A DNA stretch of 64,000 nucleotides from Leclercia pneumoniae (GTDB lineage Bacteria > Pseudomonadota > Gammaproteobacteria > Enterobacterales > Enterobacteriaceae): the NCBI RefSeq assembly GCF_017348915.1, contig NZ_CP071383.1, positions 930,001-994,000 of the forward strand, in the 5' to 3' direction. The notes below the pieces were generated by a model. It was not told the origin of the DNA and made no database searches. It saw only the letters and a program-made list of their open reading frames with translations. The position numbers were made by a program, and so were the translations under genes. Numbering within the stretch: the first letter of the stretch is position 1; every line of letters begins with the position of its first letter. Of this stretch, positions 8,604-44,238 are shown one piece after another.

Positions 8604-9890
8604 GTGCTGGAACGTCTGTCATGGAAAAGGCTTTTATTTGAACTGATCTTATGCTGCATTCCGGCCCTGATTCTGGGGGCCGTGTTAGGTTATCTTCCGT
8701 GGTTTTTACTTGCGGCAGTGACCGGCCTGCTTATCTGGCACTTCTGGAATTTATTGCGTCTCTCCTGGTGGCTATGGGTAGACAGAAGCATGACCCCACC
8801 GCCGGGTAGCGGCAGTTGGGAGCCGCTCCTGTATGGCCTGCACCAGATGCAGATGCGTAATAAAAAGCGTCGACGCGAGCTGGGTAGCCTGATTAAGCGC
8901 TTTCGCAGCGGTGCCGAATCGTTGCCGGACGCGGTGGTGTTGACCACCGAAGAGGGGGCGATCTTCTGGTGTAATGGCCTGGCGCAGCAGCTTCTTGGCC
9001 TGCGCTGGCCGGACGATAACGGCCAGAATATCCTTAACTTGCTGCGTTATCCGGAATTCGCCCGTTACCTGAAAGCGCGCGATTTTACCCGCCCGCACAA
9101 TCTGGTACTGAACAATAGCCGTCATCTTGAGATCCGCGTCATGCCTTACAGCGATCAACAGTGGTTGATGGTGGCGCGTGACGTGACCCAGATGCACCAG
9201 CTGGAAGGGGCGCGTAGAAACTTCTTTGCTAACGTCAGCCATGAGTTGCGTACGCCGTTAACGGTGTTGCAGGGCTATCTGGAGATGATGCAGGAGCAGA
9301 CGCTGGAGGGAGCACCGCGCGAGAAAGCGTTGCACACCATGCGTGAACAGACCCACCGGATGGAGGGGCTGGTTCGCCAGTTATTGACGCTTTCGCGTAT
9401 CGAAGCCGCACCAACGCTGGCGCTGAACGATACCATTGATGTGCCGATGATGCTGCGCCTGCTCGAACGTGAAGCCCAGACCTTAAGCCACGGTAGACAC
9501 CAGCTGAGCTTCGACGTGGACAACACGTTAAAAGTGCGCGGCAGTGAAGATGAACTGCGCAGCGCCATCTCGAACCTGGTATATAATGCGGTGAATCACA
9601 CCCCTGAGGGCACCTCGATTAAGGTGCGCTGGCAGCGTGTCGCTTCCGGCGCGGAGTTCAGCGTTGATGATGATGGACCCGGGGTGGCACCAGAACACAT
9701 TCCGCGTTTGACTGAACGCTTCTACCGGGTGGATAAAGCCCGATCCCGGCAGACCGGGGGCAGTGGCCTGGGGCTGGCGATTGTGAAGCATGCCATTAAT
9801 CACCATGAAAGCCGGCTCGATATCTCCAGCCAGCCCGGCGTAAGCACGCGTTTCAGCTTCGTTATTCCGGAACGTTTGCTTGCCAGTTGA
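8604..9890 (+). CDS. phoR: Phosphate sensor kinase PhoR
   Basis: A 428-residue membrane histidine kinase that phosphorylates PhoB when phosphate is scarce. The N-terminus has two closely spaced hydrophobic segments (residues about 10-60) with almost no periplasmic loop, followed by a PAS domain, the H-box [10 protein letters not shown] with phospho-acceptor His213, the N-box NLVYNAVNH and the G-boxes DDGPGV and [10 protein letters not shown]. The start is GTG 8604 behind AGGAGTG. It forms an operon with phoB and is followed by a strong hairpin. Confidence 0.97.
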
Positions 9891-9925
9891 AAGGGCTGAG
9901 AGGAGTGCTGTAATCGGAAGTTGCC

Positions 9926-9956
9926 ACAGGCCAGCGAAAGCTGGCCTGTTTACTTT
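9926..9956 (+). terminator. Terminator after phoR
   Basis: A perfect 10-base stem (ACAGGCCAGC / GCTGGCCTGT) closed by a GAAA tetraloop and followed by TTACTTT lies 36 bases after the phoR stop. Confidence 0.85.
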
Positions 9957-10308
9957 GCAGTCAGGCGAAGCGAGCATGATTTTCATACTGCTGTTGCTTT
10001 TTTGTTCGCATGATTAGCCATGAGTTTTTCTTATACATGGTTCATTGTTCCAATCACTCTTTTCATTCCGGCATAATGTTCTGGTTTTGAGATCCTATAT
10101 TGCCTTTAAACGTTATAAGCGTTTAAATTGCGCCCCAGATATCGTCATACCGACTATATTTGCGTGGTAAATCGAAAAACTATTCTTCTCCACGCCAGTA
10201 CGGGAGTATATCCCACTGAAATTGAGTATTTTTTCCGCTGTTTTGTCCCGGCAGGGATGGCGAAAAATTCATCGTTTTCAACACCACATCCACAGGCAGT
10301 AAGGTTTT
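9957..10308 (+). promoter_or_regulatory. Long leader region upstream of brnQ
   Basis: About 350 bases, richer in A+T than the flanking genes, separate the phoR terminator from brnQ. An inverted repeat, TTTAAACG (10105-10112) and CGTTTAAA (10120-10127) with a 7-base loop, is the clearest structure. No convincing small gene is seen: the open frame from 10128 lacks a good ribosome-binding site and runs into brnQ out of frame. The region probably carries the brnQ promoter and a long untranslated leader. Confidence 0.4.
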
Positions 10309-37971: not shown

Positions 37972-38002
37972 AAAAAAGCCCGGTCGGACCGGGCTTTTTT
38001 TT
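37972..38002. terminator. Bidirectional terminator between yajQ and yajR
   Basis: AAAAAAGCCCGGTC and GACCGGGCTTTTTT form a long stem with minimal loop (CG centre), with A-run and T-run flanks. It serves both converging genes. Confidence 0.94.
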
Positions 38003-39362
38003 AGGCTTTCACTGCCTGCTCCACTTCGAAACGGTTAGTCACCTTGCTGTCAATTTTGACGTAGGCACTGCGCTCTTCCGCGGCAATAAGAACTTCACTT
38101 ACGCCTTCAGTGGATTCAAGACGCTGTTTCAGCGCTTCACTTATCTCAACGCCATCAGGAATTTCGATCCGCAGGCTGCTTACGTAACGGGGCTCTTTCA
38201 TGGTGGTGGCAACAAACAGCCAGACCATGGCCAGCAGTGCGCCCGCGAGGAAGACCGTTTGTGAGTCAAACAGACCATCTACCCAGCCCCCAAGCGAGCC
38301 GCCAATGGCCACCCCAAGAAACTGGCTGGTGGAATAAATGCCCATCGCCGTCCCTTTATAACCGGCCGGAGACTCTTTACTGATCAGCGACGGCAGCAGC
38401 GCTTCCATCAGGTTAAAAGCGAGGAAGAAGAGTTGTACGCCGGCTACCAGCTCCCAAAAGTGCGGGCCGGAGCCCCAAAGTACGATCTCGGCAATGAGCA
38501 ATATCGCCACGCAACCGATAAAGACGCGCTTCATCTTACGCTTCACTTCGGCATAGATAATAAATGGCACCACCGAGACGAACGAAATCAGCATCGTCAC
38601 GAGGTAAATCTTCCAGTGCTCTGCCGCCGGAAAACCTGCCGCGGCAAGCTGTCCTGGCAGGGCGACAAAGGTCGACATCAGCAGAATATGCAGGCACATA
38701 ATGCCGAAGTTAAGCTTGAGCAGGCGCGGCTCCATGAGCACTTTGCTGAAGCAGCCTTTCACCATCCCCGACTCACGGTTAAGGACGTGATTTTTACTGT
38801 CCGGCACTACCCACAGCGTTAAGGCAATACCGATAGTCGCCAGTATGGCAATCATCCAGAACAGGGCATGCAGACCCAGCTTGTGCGTAATAACCGGGCC
38901 GAGCACCATCGCTATGGCAAAGGTAACCCCGAAACTCACGCCAATAAAGGCCATTGCTTTGGTGCGGTTTTGTTCGCGCGTTAAGTCTGACAACAGTGCC
39001 ATCACGGCGGCGGCTATCGCGCCGGAACCTTGCAGCGCGCGGCCAAGAATAATACCCCAGATAGAGTGGGAGAGGGCGGCGATAACGCTACCCAGCACGA
39101 AGACCAGCAATCCGCCCACAATTAACGGCTTGCGACCTACGCGGTCAGAGAGCAGACCGAAGGGGATCTGGAAGATGGCCTGGGCCAGGCCATAGATGCC
39201 AATCGCCAGACCAATCAATGCTTCGCTGGCACCCTGCAGCGCCATACCATACGTAGTCAGAACGGGCAGGACCATAAACATGCCGAGCATACGCAGTGAG
39301 AAAACAGTCCCTAAACCCCAGGTGGCGCGCAACTCGCCCGGCGTCATTTTATAATCGTTCAT
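38001..39362 (-). CDS. yajR: MFS transporter YajR
   Basis: A 453-residue major facilitator superfamily protein with twelve membrane segments and a C-terminal soluble ferredoxin-like YAM domain (about residues 388-453; VSSLRIEIPDGVEISEALKQRL). Motif A, GLLSDRVGRKPLIVGG, lies after the second membrane helix. The E. coli structure is known but the substrate is not. The ATG at 39362 (MNDYKMTPGELRATWG) agrees with E. coli. It marks the left edge of the accessory segment; in E. coli cyoE is the next gene. Confidence 0.95.
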   Translation of the reverse strand: MNDYKMTPGELRATWGLGTVFSLRMLGMFMVLPVLTTYGMALQGASEALIGLAIGIYGLAQAIFQIPFGLLSDRVGRKPLIVGGLLVFVLGSVIAALSHSIWGIILGRALQGSGAIAAAVMALLSDLTREQNRTKAMAFIGVSFGVTFAIAMVLGPVITHKLGLHALFWMIAILATIGIALTLWVVPDSKNHVLNRESGMVKGCFSKVLMEPRLLKLNFGIMCLHILLMSTFVALPGQLAAAGFPAAEHWKIYLVTMLISFVSVVPFIIYAEVKRKMKRVFIGCVAILLIAEIVLWGSGPHFWELVAGVQLFFLAFNLMEALLPSLISKESPAGYKGTAMGIYSTSQFLGVAIGGSLGGWVDGLFDSQTVFLAGALLAMVWLFVATTMKEPRYVSSLRIEIPDGVEISEALKQRLESTEGVSEVLIAAEERSAYVKIDSKVTNRFEVEQAVKA

Positions 39363-39368
39363 TACCAC

Positions 39369-40804: not shown

Positions 40805-40966
40805 ATGAAAAATAGCGAAAACAAATGTAAGGCAATCAGATTAAATCCTATTGCTGCTTCACTGTTAATGCTGATGCCAGTAATGGCGCAGGCGGCCGAT
40901 ATTACAATGGTTGATGGCAATGTAACCAGAGCAGCTAACGGTACAACTATGAATCGCCACAGATAA
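40805..40966 (+). pseudogene. N-terminal fragment of a secreted exoprotein, cut by the IS element
   Basis: ATG 40805 begins MKNSENKCKAIRLNP, followed by a hydrophobic core (IAASLLMLMPVMA) and a likely signal cleavage site AQA-A at residues 28-31, then DITMVDGNVTRAANGTT. The native frame is lost at the IS end (base 40950) after 48-49 codons, and a stop follows inside the element at 40964-40966. A signal peptide with a lysine-rich start and an early ANGT segment recalls the start of two-partner-secretion exoproteins (haemagglutinin or CdiA type), or an autotransporter, but too little remains to assign it. No matching downstream part is seen beyond the IS. Confidence 0.5.
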
Positions 40967-40967
40967 T

Positions 40968-41780
40968 CTAGACACTTCCGAGCCGCTGATAATATTGTTT
41001 TTCGTATTCAGTTGGTGGCATATGATCACTCGAACCATGCCGACGCTTACTGTTATAAAATATTTCGATGTAATCAAAAATATCACCGCGAGCTTCTTCT
41101 CGCGTTCCGTAGATCTTTTTCTTTATCCGTTCACGTTTCAGTAGCTGGAAAAAACTTTCTGCGACTGCGTTGTCATGACAGTTACCGCGACGGCTCATAC
41201 TGCCCTCCAGCCCGTGTGATTTCAGGAACGACTGCCACTCATAGCTTGTGTACTGACTGCCTTGATCAGAATGAACCAGCACCTGCTTTTGAGGATTACG
41301 TCGCCACACGGCCATCAGAAGTGCATTCAGGACAATATCCTTTGTCATCCGGGGCTGCATTGACCAGCCAATAACTTTGCGCGAGAACAGGTCAACAACC
41401 ACAGCCAGATACAGCCAGCCTTCGTGAGTCCGGATGTAGGTGATGTCCGTTACCCAACGCTCATCCGGTGCTTCCGGGTTGAACTGCCGCTGGAGCCTGT
41501 TGGGCGTCACGATGCTGGTTTCACCCTTACGTGCCCGTGGGCTACGGTACCCGACCTGAGCCCTTATCCCGGCACGCTTCATCAGTCGCCAGACACGGTT
41601 AACTCCGCACTGTTGTCCGGTATCCCGCAGGTCGAGGTGGATCTTGCGATAACCATAAACGCAACCCGACTCCAGCCAGAACTGCTTTATCAGCCCCGTC
41701 AGCCTCAGGTCAGCATGATGCCGCCGTGAATCCGGCTGCTGAAGCCAGGCGTAAAAACCACTCGGATGCACATCCAGCAC
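40968..41780 (-). CDS. IS3-family transposase OrfB (catalytic part of OrfAB)
   Basis: A 270-residue DDE integrase-type transposase. The catalytic residues are seen in WVTDITYIRT (Asp), LVHSDQGSQYTS (Asp) and NAVAESFFQLLKRE (Glu), with HTH_21 region upstream. The first possible start is GTG 41780, but the open frame continues upstream to overlap orfA (KAVRLRYAFIRDNTYCWPVRLLCRVLDVHPSG), as expected for a fusion made by -1 frameshifting at the A-run at 41870-41876. Confidence 0.92.
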   Translation of the reverse strand: MLDVHPSGFYAWLQQPDSRRHHADLRLTGLIKQFWLESGCVYGYRKIHLDLRDTGQQCGVNRVWRLMKRAGIRAQVGYRSPRARKGETSIVTPNRLQRQFNPEAPDERWVTDITYIRTHEGWLYLAVVVDLFSRKVIGWSMQPRMTKDIVLNALLMAVWRRNPQKQVLVHSDQGSQYTSYEWQSFLKSHGLEGSMSRRGNCHDNAVAESFFQLLKRERIKKKIYGTREEARGDIFDYIEIFYNSKRRHGSSDHMPPTEYEKQYYQRLGSV

Positions 41781-41836
41781 CCGACAAAGCAGTCGGACAG
41801 GCCAGCAATAGGTGTTGTCACGGATAAAGGCGTACC

Positions 41837-42115
41837 TCAGTCGGACAGCTTTGCGAAGTACGCCGCGGCTTTTTTTAATATGTCCCGTTCGTCGGTAACC
41901 CGCTTCAGCTCTTTCTGGAGGCGTCGGATCTCAGCCTGAGCGTCTGACTGGACTTTATTGGTTGAGGAATCCGGGCCATATGCCTTTATCCAGGCATAAA
42001 GACTGTGGGTGGTGATACCGAGACGTGTTGCCACGCTGGAAACAGAATGGCCGCGATCAACAACCTGTTTTACCGCTTCAATTTTAAACTCTTCGGGATA
42101 ACGCTTACCGCTCAT
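41837..42115 (-). CDS. IS3-family transposase OrfA
   Basis: A 92-residue DNA-binding protein with a helix-turn-helix (KRYPEEFKIEAVKQVVDRGHSVSSVATRLGITTHSLYAWIK) followed by a leucine-zipper-like helix (IRRLQKELKRVTDERDILKKAAAYFAKLSD). The ATG at 42115 follows GAGAGG. Near its end, AAAAAAAG (complement of 41869-41876) is the slippery sequence for the -1 frameshift that produces OrfAB. Confidence 0.92.
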   Translation of the reverse strand: MSGKRYPEEFKIEAVKQVVDRGHSVSSVATRLGITTHSLYAWIKAYGPDSSTNKVQSDAQAEIRRLQKELKRVTDERDILKKAAAYFAKLSD

Positions 42116-42178
42116 GGGCACCTCTCTTTAAGTCATCTTAAATGACTCTGAGGTGTCTGTTAAACCCGTGGCGATTCA

Positions 42179-42446
42179 AACGTCATTATTGCATGGCCGC
42201 TCTTATCCACGGCGGACATGTAGTGATATAAAACGCTGCTTATAACAGGTGAGGGGCAGTATGCTACATTCCCCGGCGTCTCGTAGGTGCAGGTTATGAT
42301 GCCGGGCTTGCCAGCAATGCCAGAGTAGTCTGCCTGAGATAACGACTGAGGTATCCTTGCTGATGCGTTAGTTCAGAGAGTAAAGTGAATAAAACCGCTA
42401 ATTTTCTCTGGCAGGCAGCTTTACCTGCCAGAAATTTCACCCTGCG
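42179..42446. other. Region between the IS and the double-glycine peptide gene
   Basis: No confident gene. A minus-strand frame of 70 codons without a usual start, from 42372 into the IS end at 42163, is open; its translation (for example ADYSGIAGKPGIITCTYETP) is not recognised. On the plus strand no continuation of the cut exoprotein is visible: the three frames stop within about 20 codons. It is probably gene remnants. Confidence 0.4.
42408..42431. terminator. Hairpin downstream of the double-glycine peptide gene
   Basis: CTGGCAGG and CCTGCCAG form a perfect 8-base stem with an 8-base loop, 16 bases after the stop of the minus-strand peptide gene. The following bases on that strand (AGAAAATT) are only weakly U-rich, so termination is possible but not certain. 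Confidence 0.5.
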
Positions 42447-42779
42447 TCAGGCAGAGGCAGCATCAATAAATTTATTCCAGTCATTTCCGGCATTACTGAC
42501 GAAGTTAGACCAACTGTCTCCAGCGGTACTGGTAAAGTTATTCCAGTTACTGGATCCAGTCGAAACGACAGATGTCCAGCTGGACTGGCTAATCACATAC
42601 TTACCGAACTCCAGTGCGCTATCGGCGACAAAATGCGTAAATGCCGTACCAGACGTCCAGACAAACGAGGCAAAACCGATGCCTGAATTAAAAACAAAGC
42701 TGGAAAACCCGGTGACGGCGCCAAAGAGATCGAAGCCCCCTGAGACATATTCCATTTCAATTATAGATAATTCTTTCAT
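42447..42779 (-). CDS. Putative class II microcin-like peptide: double-glycine leader plus 11-residue aromatic repeats
   Basis: A 110-residue small protein. Residues 1-15, MKELSIIEMEYVSGG, form a double-glycine leader of the same length and pattern as colicin V (Met-x-x-Leu ... Val-Ser-Gly-Gly), the type cleaved by C39-peptidase ABC exporters. The remaining 95 residues fall into nine units of about 11 residues, each starting with Phe (first five) or Trp (last four) and usually with Phe, Tyr or Val at position 4, for example FASFVWTSGTA, WNNFTSTAGDS and WSNFVSNAGND. There is no Cys, the mature part is acidic and rich in Ser, Gly, Asn and aromatics. The start at ATG 42779 is preceded by TTAAGGGAATAAAC; the longer frame to 42812 lacks a better site. 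No exporter or immunity gene is adjacent. Not a known microcin that I recognise. Confidence 0.75.
   Translation of the reverse strand: MKELSIIEMEYVSGGFDLFGAVTGFSSFVFNSGIGFASFVWTSGTAFTHFVADSALEFGKYVISQSSWTSVVSTGSSNWNNFTSTAGDSWSNFVSNAGNDWNKFIDAASA
42472..42567. repeat. Degenerate 33-base tandem repeats inside the peptide gene
   Basis: The Trp-type 11-residue units are mirrored by 33-base DNA units beginning TTATTCCAG (42472), TTAGACCAA (42505) and TTATTCCAG (42538) on the plus strand. Similarity persists at DNA level, which suggests growth by duplication of a 33-base unit. Confidence 0.6.
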
Positions 42780-42962
42780 GTTTATTCCCTTAATAAATAA
42801 TCCTGAATACATCAGTTATGTATCCATTTCGGGAGGCTAACACTGTCGATAGCGTTAAGCTATAGCGTCTTCAAAACTAAGAATTAGTAAATATACAGGG
42901 GTCACCTTGCATACTCTTAGCCTGGCATATGACCGTGACATCCTTGTCAGAACCTTACGCAA

Positions 42963-42999
42963 TAAAAAAAGCCCCGGGCGCAGGCCCGAGGCTTTTTTA
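42963..42999 (-). terminator. Terminator after cyoE
   Basis: GCCCCGGGC and GCCCGAGGC pair across a GCAG loop with A-run and T-run flanks. It ends the cyoABCDE transcript and insulates it from the upstream part of the peptide gene. Confidence 0.88.
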
Positions 43000-43013: not shown

Positions 43014-43901
43014 TTACCAGACGTAAGTGAGCAGGCTGTGTGAATCCGGTACCATAAAATCGACGGACATCATCACGCTCAATGCGGTAATAGCAATGAT
43101 AGAGAAGCCGAACAGCTTACGCGCCCAGACCTTATCATCTTCCACTTTATAACCGCGCAGTGCCATGCCCAGCCACCAAACGCTCACGGCGGCAGCGACA
43201 ACCAGATATTTATATCCAGCGTAACCGCCCAAAGAGAGCATCAGCGTCGCGATAGCGAAGGCAATGATATAAAGCGTGATATGGTTTTTGGCGACCGAAA
43301 TGCCTTTCACGACCGGCAGAACCGGGATGTTCGCAGCCTGATAATCCTTAAAGCGGAAAATCGCAATGGCATAGGAGTGCGGCATCTGCCACAGGCTAAA
43401 GATAGCCAGCAGGATGAGCGCACCGCTGTCGAACTCGTTAGTGACCGCGCAGTAGCCAATCACCGGCGGCGCAGCGCCGGAGAGTGAACCAATCAGCGTA
43501 CCGTAAACGGAGTGACGTTTCATATACAGGCTGTAGATGCCTACATAAACCACGAAACCCATCACCCCCAGCCAGCAGGCCAGAGGATTAGCACCGAACC
43601 ACAGCAGCATAAAGCCAGCAATACCCAGCAAGGTGGCGTACACCAGCGAGACGGAAGGGGACATCAGGCCTTTTACCAGCACCCGGTTCTTAGTCCTTTC
43701 CATCTTCCTGTCGATATCCATGTCGATGTAGTTATTAAATACACAACCGGACGCAACCACCAGCGACACCCCAACCAGCGTATTGATAAAGAGGGTGTAA
43801 TCAATGCTGCCCTTAGAGGCCAGCAGGAACCCTCCGATCACGGAGATCAGGTTGCCAAAGATGATGCCTGGTTTCGTAACTTGCAGGTATTGCTTAAACA
43901 T
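43014..43901 (-). CDS. cyoE: Protoheme IX farnesyltransferase CyoE (heme O synthase)
   Basis: A 295-residue UbiA-family membrane prenyltransferase that adds a farnesyl group to heme b, giving heme O for cytochrome bo. The first Asp-rich motif is [18 protein letters not shown] near residue 60-75; the second region is [22 protein letters not shown] 43901 ([17 protein letters not shown]) fits the family; the longer frame runs into cyoD. Here the usual D-x-D-x-x-x-D arrangement is kept (DMDIDRK). Confidence 0.96.
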
Positions 43902-43912
43902 ACTCGCCGCTC

Positions 43913-44238
43913 TTAGTGAACCATCATGTTGTAGTTGAGGTTCCACATGATCCAGATGGAGCCGACTACCAGGATTGCGATGATAATCACAGTAAAGACG
44001 AAGGCCGTCATGTTCCAGCCTTCATCAGACTTGGTGTTCATGTGCAGGAAGCAAACCAGATGCACCAGAATCTGAATCACCGCGGTCACCAGGATTGCGC
44101 CCAGAATAACCGGCTTAGAAGCAGAACCGCTCATCACCATCCAGAAGGGGATAACCGTCAGGATGATCGACAGGATGAAACCTGTCATATAGGTTTTTAC
44201 GCTGCCATGGGAAGCGCCATGATCGTTAGAATGACTCA

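Follow-up and report, generated by a model that had tools for sequence, protein, structure and literature searches.

An intact double-glycine peptide gene with an aromatic 11-residue repeat in Leclercia pneumoniae, a probable orphan of a C39 exporter encoded at a distant locus in its relatives

The window analysed here, a stretch of 64,000 nucleotides from Leclercia pneumoniae (positions 930,001–994,000 of contig NZ_CP071383.1), holds a small gene next to the cyo operon whose product begins with a double-glycine leader and continues as a run of aromatic repeats. It raises the question of what kind of peptide this is, which transporter would export it and whether that transporter is still present in this strain. 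The gene occupies 42447–42779 on the minus strand, with its stop codon at 42447–42449 and a ribosome-binding site, AAGGGAA, at 42785–42791, and both the translation and this site confirm the initial annotation of a 110-residue minus-strand gene with a good ribosome-binding site. The leader, MKELSIIEMEYVSGG (42735–42779), carries hydrophobic residues at −4 (V12), −7 (M9) and −12 (L4), and K2, L4, S13, G14 and G15 are invariant in the 20 distinct family members described below, which bears out its assignment as a 15-residue double-glycine leader. Residues 16–110 (42450–42734) form the mature part, made of nine aromatic units of 9–11 residues. There is an in-frame upstream ATG at 42812, giving 121 residues, but the homologues begin at MKEL with AAGG-type sites of their own. 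A plus-strand open reading frame of 151 residues that overlaps the gene (42385–42840) gains no support from the pattern of selection.

Upstream on the same strand lies cyoE (UbiA family, 43014–43946; PF01040, E 1.7e-62), followed by a terminator-like hairpin at 42969–42987 that sets the cyo operon apart from the peptide gene; this is a match of a terminator consensus scan that returned three matches, against an average of 0.8 in shuffled sequence. Just 3′ of the peptide gene, at 42405–42434, is a 13-bp perfect hairpin that is terminator-like and lacks a U tract (minus strand; fold z-score −4.65, with 0 of 200 shuffles as good). The promoter scan gave a single match, on the other strand. Further downstream is yajR (38001–39368, minus strand; PF21987 YajR_YAM plus MFS_1), the downstream neighbour of the peptide gene in several relatives.

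The units start with Phe or Trp at residues 16, 25, 36, 47, 58, 68, 79, 90 and 101, and the central unit (58–67) has 10 residues. At a lag of 11 the 95-residue mature part shows 13 aromatic coincidences, a value reached by none of 20,000 shuffles of the same residues either at that lag or at any lag from 2 to 30 (largest 11), so the nine-unit, 11-residue periodicity is far beyond chance. The mature part of the window copy is also, as first described, acidic (net charge −4) and free of Cys, while a single Cys is present in the copies of some relatives. At the DNA level just one 15-base repeat pair remains in the gene, implying that the units are old. This pair, together with a length of 110 codons shared by 20 of 20 members, goes against a recent expansion of a Phe block and a Trp block, whose separate growth had been suggested earlier. 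The Phe and Trp parts more readily correspond to the two arms of a hairpin, which the 10-residue central unit also fits.

The gene has relatives in other genomes. Among 61 genomes of its own genus, strong matches are found in the window genome and eight others, with one further genome carrying only a paralogue; in Klebsiella the peptide is found in 11 of 20 genomes, counting the diverged 100-residue copy of genome G476, and Entomohabitans teleogrylli also carries a member. Two of the Klebsiella sequences equal those of K. aerogenes NCTC10006 and K. pneumoniae 176. Across the bacterial family the gene is rare: even draws from larger groups gave positives in 5 of 392 genomes, representing 3 of 154 genera, for the family and in 2 of 394 genomes for the order, and a DNA-level search of E. 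coli genomes found no homologue. No Pfam family matches the peptide over its cut-off (best E 0.054), no NCBIfam family matches up to E 5, and solved structures gave no convincing match (best E 0.14). The open literature, as far as its accessible text extends, holds no account of the aromatic repeat family or of the groL–epmB exporter described below; the family may have been listed already, without a name, among the putative microcins of published surveys.

Selection and register were assessed on 20 distinct members including that of the window, omitting the 100-residue G476 copy, the 108-residue paralogues and the duplicates L024, L025 and L092. All 20 have 110 codons with zero indels; pN is lower than pS in every one of the 190 pairs, and the 26 pairs with pS below 0.6 give dN/dS values of 0.035–0.30. 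Homologues thus exist in other genomes, with a fixed repeat frame and ratios not near one, as the proposal of a conserved family had required, and on these sequence comparisons the family is real and under purifying selection. A tree of the 20 members left 13 of its 17 inner branches open, with the genera mixed, and does not separate vertical from horizontal descent; the window copy is 64–68% identical to five Klebsiella copies and 57–61% identical to those of its own genus.

Several related genes differ in length. The G476 copy (L106) is 100 residues long, its stop codon falling one unit early. A set of 108-residue paralogues with a GA leader (L071–L075, L095, L107 and L108) shares only the last two Trp units with the family and is located near yajR or cyoE; in G031, G073, G074 and G324 such a paralogue lies beside a gene cluster, which in G031 contains ketosynthase, GcvT-like and FtsX/MacB-like genes.

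Our structural reading of the mature peptide comes from prediction and from the alignment. AlphaFold2, given only the window and Entomohabitans proteins as input, places one helix at residues 18–62 (42594–42728, the Phe units) and another at residues 68–109 (42453–42578, the Trp units), joined by a loop at 63–67. On this two-sequence input the best model has a mean pLDDT of 86.7 (95–97 in its body) and a pTM of 0.68, and the five models range from 86.7 down to 47.7, two of them being under 50. The single continuous helix implied by the initial annotation is thus replaced, in the prediction, by a two-helix hairpin. In the alignment, 17 columns hold an aromatic residue in 17 or more of the 20 members, and 16 of these 17 pair in one antiparallel register, giving eight aromatic pairs at i+j=129. 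This register is the best of all sums scanned and its centre, 64.5, agrees with the predicted loop; since two aromatics per unit can always mirror at some centre, the agreement is supportive and, taken alone, not strong. In the Trp half the hydrophobic moment is greatest at 98.0 degrees (0 of 2000 shuffles), which is the pitch of an 11/3 helix; in the Phe half the maximum is at 66 degrees, with a modest value at 98.2 degrees (8 of 2000 shuffles). The amphipathic 11/3 helix proposed earlier therefore stands for the Trp half and weakly for the Phe half; that the latter lacks a clear amphipathic pattern at 98 degrees counts against a hairpin built of hendecads. Together these observations suggest that the mature peptide may fold as an antiparallel two-helix hairpin.

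The surroundings of the gene were compared in 12 loci. It occupies the cyoE–yajR site in seven, with short gaps, lies beside one of these two genes in four and is found elsewhere in Entomohabitans (L023), so the cyoE–yajR site is not essential. No small open reading frame recurs beside the peptide gene between genera in the 12 loci, and hence there is no candidate immunity gene adjoining it, although one may lie at a distance.

A transporter for such a leader is found in the relatives at a different site. Between groL and epmB they carry a C39-peptidase ABC exporter (cvaB, about 710 residues) and its HlyD-type partner (cvaA), with, before or after them, yjeJ (PF15922), one to three other double-glycine peptide genes and a chaperone-usher set of fimbrial genes (usher, PapD chaperone, Fimbrial and a weak MrkD receptor-domain match). 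We defined this locus by a cvaB at least 80% identical to one reference, plus cvaA and yjeJ; all C39 matches above 115 bits in the genus of the window, except G068:C48, were fetched with their flanks and classified. The locus is present in 11 of the 61 own-genus genomes and in 11 of the 20 Klebsiella genomes, and in Klebsiella the same 11 genomes hold both locus and peptide (G476 counted). Eight of the 11 own-genus genomes with the locus have the peptide; G074 has only a 108-residue paralogue, and G062 and G068 have neither. Overall, of the 22 genomes that have the locus, 19 have the peptide (18 if the 100-residue G476 copy is left out), compared with 1 of the 59 that lack it (Fisher p 2e-14, with genomes treated as unrelated). 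The expectation that a cvaA/cvaB-like exporter accompanies the peptide therefore proves true in the relatives. The two genomes that have the exporter and lack the peptide count against the pairing, and it is broken by the single genome with the peptide and without the locus, which is the window's own.

Catalytic Cys, His and Asp residues are present in 20 of 20 exporters inspected from the 22 loci. The family leader is identical at a mean of 9.2 of 15 positions to those of 30 peptides from 19 groL-type loci (3 of the 30 mis-cut) and at 6.9 of 15 to those of 20 peptides from other C39 loci, whose cvaB proteins, in both genera, are 26–70% identical and have different neighbours. No upstream motif shared by the peptide gene and the exporter-locus peptides is evident by eye. 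Both peptide and exporter are present in K. pneumoniae 176, and in K. pneumoniae 2020S07-151 the exporter is found under the annotation "peptidase domain-containing ABC transporter". As a separate observation, yjeJ adjoins cvaB in 22 of 22 groL-type loci (e.g. L094:8722–9609), and in three Klebsiella loci at other sites cvaB has as its neighbour a relative that is 25–27% identical; this gene order suggests that YjeJ may belong to double-glycine export. A different C39 locus (L162–L175), found in many own-genus genomes, carries a 64-residue peptide starting MKAISFVEAKDIIGGALNPFAGLVKG.

The genome of the window itself presents another picture. No C39 domain is matched anywhere in its 4.4 Mb, where the initial annotation had advised looking for cvaA/cvaB-like genes, and its best CvaB-like ABC proteins are without the N-terminal domain; export by that route is probably absent in this strain. 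Its groL–epmB interval reads yjeJ, a copy of an IS3-family element, epmB, with no cvaB, cvaA or fimbrial gene left, and yjeJ is cut there such that its first residues are read from the IS copy. A further copy of the element adjoins the peptide gene (40951–42180, minus strand), where it cuts a two-partner-secretion haemagglutinin gene, leaving an N-terminal stub (40805–40950, plus strand) with 33 of 46 residues identical to the L073 open reading frame; the L071 copy matches PF05860 TPS. The genome has 17 matches to the element, 14 of them full-length and nearly identical, and with so many copies chance may account for its presence at both sites. No target duplication flanks either copy, which fits deletions adjoining the element. 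We infer that the exporter was lost from this genome, probably via the mobile element, rather than never having been present. A yjeJ without an exporter is also known from E. coli K-12, so the element might have inserted into a locus from which the exporter was absent all along. Either way, the peptide in the window genome is most likely an orphan substrate whose gene is intact. Three more double-glycine-like peptide genes occur in this genome without a C39 exporter: one at hflC–purA (L192:9343–9660), which has relatives in two records of K. pneumoniae, and a pair near an mpl-like gene (L191:9242–9565 and 9813–10136), with a leader ending in SAA.

On balance we lean towards the view that the family encodes a secreted helical-hairpin peptide that is probably active at surfaces or membranes, is exported in trans and works with fimbriae, and that has become an orphan in the window genome. 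In the relatives, the C39 domain of the distant CvaB-type exporter would most likely recognise the leader and cleave behind Gly15, and the 95-residue product would leave through the CvaB-type channel with TolC, by analogy with known systems. Outside, it may form two antiparallel helices of 11-residue units with their aromatic stripes facing each other, the model placing F25–F104, F28–W101, F36–F93, F39–W90, F47–F82, F50–W79, F58–71 and F61–W68 opposite one another; position 71, one of the 16 paired aromatic columns, is Val in the window copy. There the product would work alongside the fimbriae, on the cell surface or close to it, and serve in adhesion, in the matrix or as a coat on membranes. 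Cleavage, export and function are read here from comparison, and the fimbrial partnership is suggested by the gene neighbourhood of the exporter. A precedent is offered by the double-glycine EbfG proteins, which, according to the accessible portion of PMC9981879, are exported by a C39 transporter and are proteins of the cell surface and the matrix.

The same leader and exporter type would also suit a class II microcin, that is, an antibacterial peptide exported by a CvaAB-type system whose aromatic helices insert into or form pores in the inner membrane of a target. Peptides of this kind from Klebsiella and Enterobacter are called putative microcins in the surveys PMC9746304 and PMC11494933, in so far as their text is accessible, and the other peptides of the exporter loci are, like microcins, rich in glycine (most 18–26%). 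However, no immunity-like gene neighbours the peptide gene in the 12 loci, the gene lies far from the exporter (about 670 kb in G079 and G061), its length is fixed and purifying selection on it is strong. The glycine content, 10.0% in the window copy and 9.1–15.5% across the family, reaches at least 12% in only five of the 20 precursors, compared with 12–26% for known microcins. We therefore regard a microcin as the main alternative, though less probable than not.

Whether the gene has already become a relic in the window genome, its function gone with the exporter and the gene bound to decay, is a matter on which the evidence seems to us evenly balanced. The missing C39 domain, the near-identical IS copies that imply recent change, the truncation of the adjacent haemagglutinin gene by the same element and the three other double-glycine-like orphans all fit such a fate, but the reading frame is intact and its median pN/pS against its own genus (0.31) is close to that among those genomes (0.30), a comparison of low power since dS is saturated. 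A relic here would be compatible with export and surface function in the relatives, which are what our preferred reading concerns. An intact gene without an exporter could also mean that the peptide acts inside the cell or at its membrane and that the leader-like start is incidental; given the invariant leader positions in 20 members and the co-occurrence with the C39 exporter, this seems very improbable. That a fragment of a phage tail tape-measure protein acquired an export leader and so gave rise to the peptide is a reading to which we give hardly any credence. The same 11-residue [FW] period is described in the accessible text of PMC3271669, and there are weak PHROG profile matches to tape-measure families (3 of 12 members, best 0.004; one member E 0.0031). 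The best weak PHROG match, however, is to phrog_6023, whose function is unknown (4 of 12 members, 0.00073), the common hendecad pattern suffices for such scores, and descent from a phage gene was rejected because tblastn against 50,697 phage records at E <= 1 returned zero matches. The likeness is more plausibly one of helix geometry, probably reached by convergence.

If the surface-peptide reading is true, double-glycine export in Klebsiella and its relatives serves more than microcins, one exporter inside a fimbrial locus serves solitary peptide genes at distant housekeeping sites, and searches confined to exporter neighbourhoods miss such peptides. A bolder version, which we hold only tentatively and think more probably wrong than right, is that Klebsiella and its relatives have a novel type of exported surface protein: the groL–epmB exporter would serve a dispersed set of solitary double-glycine genes, the 110-residue member would be a non-microcin aromatic-zipper hairpin of fixed length and a structural or adhesive partner of the fimbriae, and YjeJ would be a component of export. 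The family offers a clear test case of double-glycine peptides as surface builders versus killers of rivals, yjeJ, a gene of unknown function, gains a genomic context from its place beside cvaB in every groL-type locus, and the window genome is a natural case of peptides stranded without their exporter.

Among known systems, membrane helices of the alpha-synuclein type share the 11-residue amphipathic repeat, but they are eukaryotic, are not aromatic and lack a hairpin of two aromatic stripes. Phage tape-measure proteins share [FW] every 11 residues but are long, leaderless, cytoplasmic proteins of the virion. The family is like the MccV (colicin V) type with its CvaA–CvaB–TolC exporter in the 15-residue leader and in the C39 exporter with catalytic residues found in the relatives, and unlike it in its 110-residue precursor, its solitary and distant gene, its mostly low glycine content and its aromatic 11-residue repeat. 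Measured against the defining features of class II microcins, drawn from the accessible text of PMC11494933 and PMC10233263, the window peptide has the leader, given in PMC11494933 as 15–18 residues with hydrophobic residues at −4, −7 and −12, in the form of V12, M9 and L4 before Gly15. The C39 exporter and membrane-fusion protein are absent from the window genome, whereas the remaining 19 of the 20 genomes with the peptide, in two genera, have them; the gene is not near its exporter (cyoE–yajR versus groL–epmB), no immunity gene adjoins it in the 12 loci, and its glycine content is borderline. The putative microcins listed by the cinful and language-model surveys (PMC9746304, PMC11494933) come from the same genera, and the four Klebsiella matches with 8–10% glycine in the language-model survey (PMC11494933) overlap some members in composition and might be the present family, but the accessible text of these surveys describes no repeat, hairpin, fimbrial locus or pairing in trans. 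EbfG1–4 of Synechococcus elongatus are likewise small double-glycine, C39-exported proteins, with roles at the cell surface and in the biofilm matrix; they differ, in the available account (PMC9981879), in being cyanobacterial and, for EbfG1–3, amyloid-forming.
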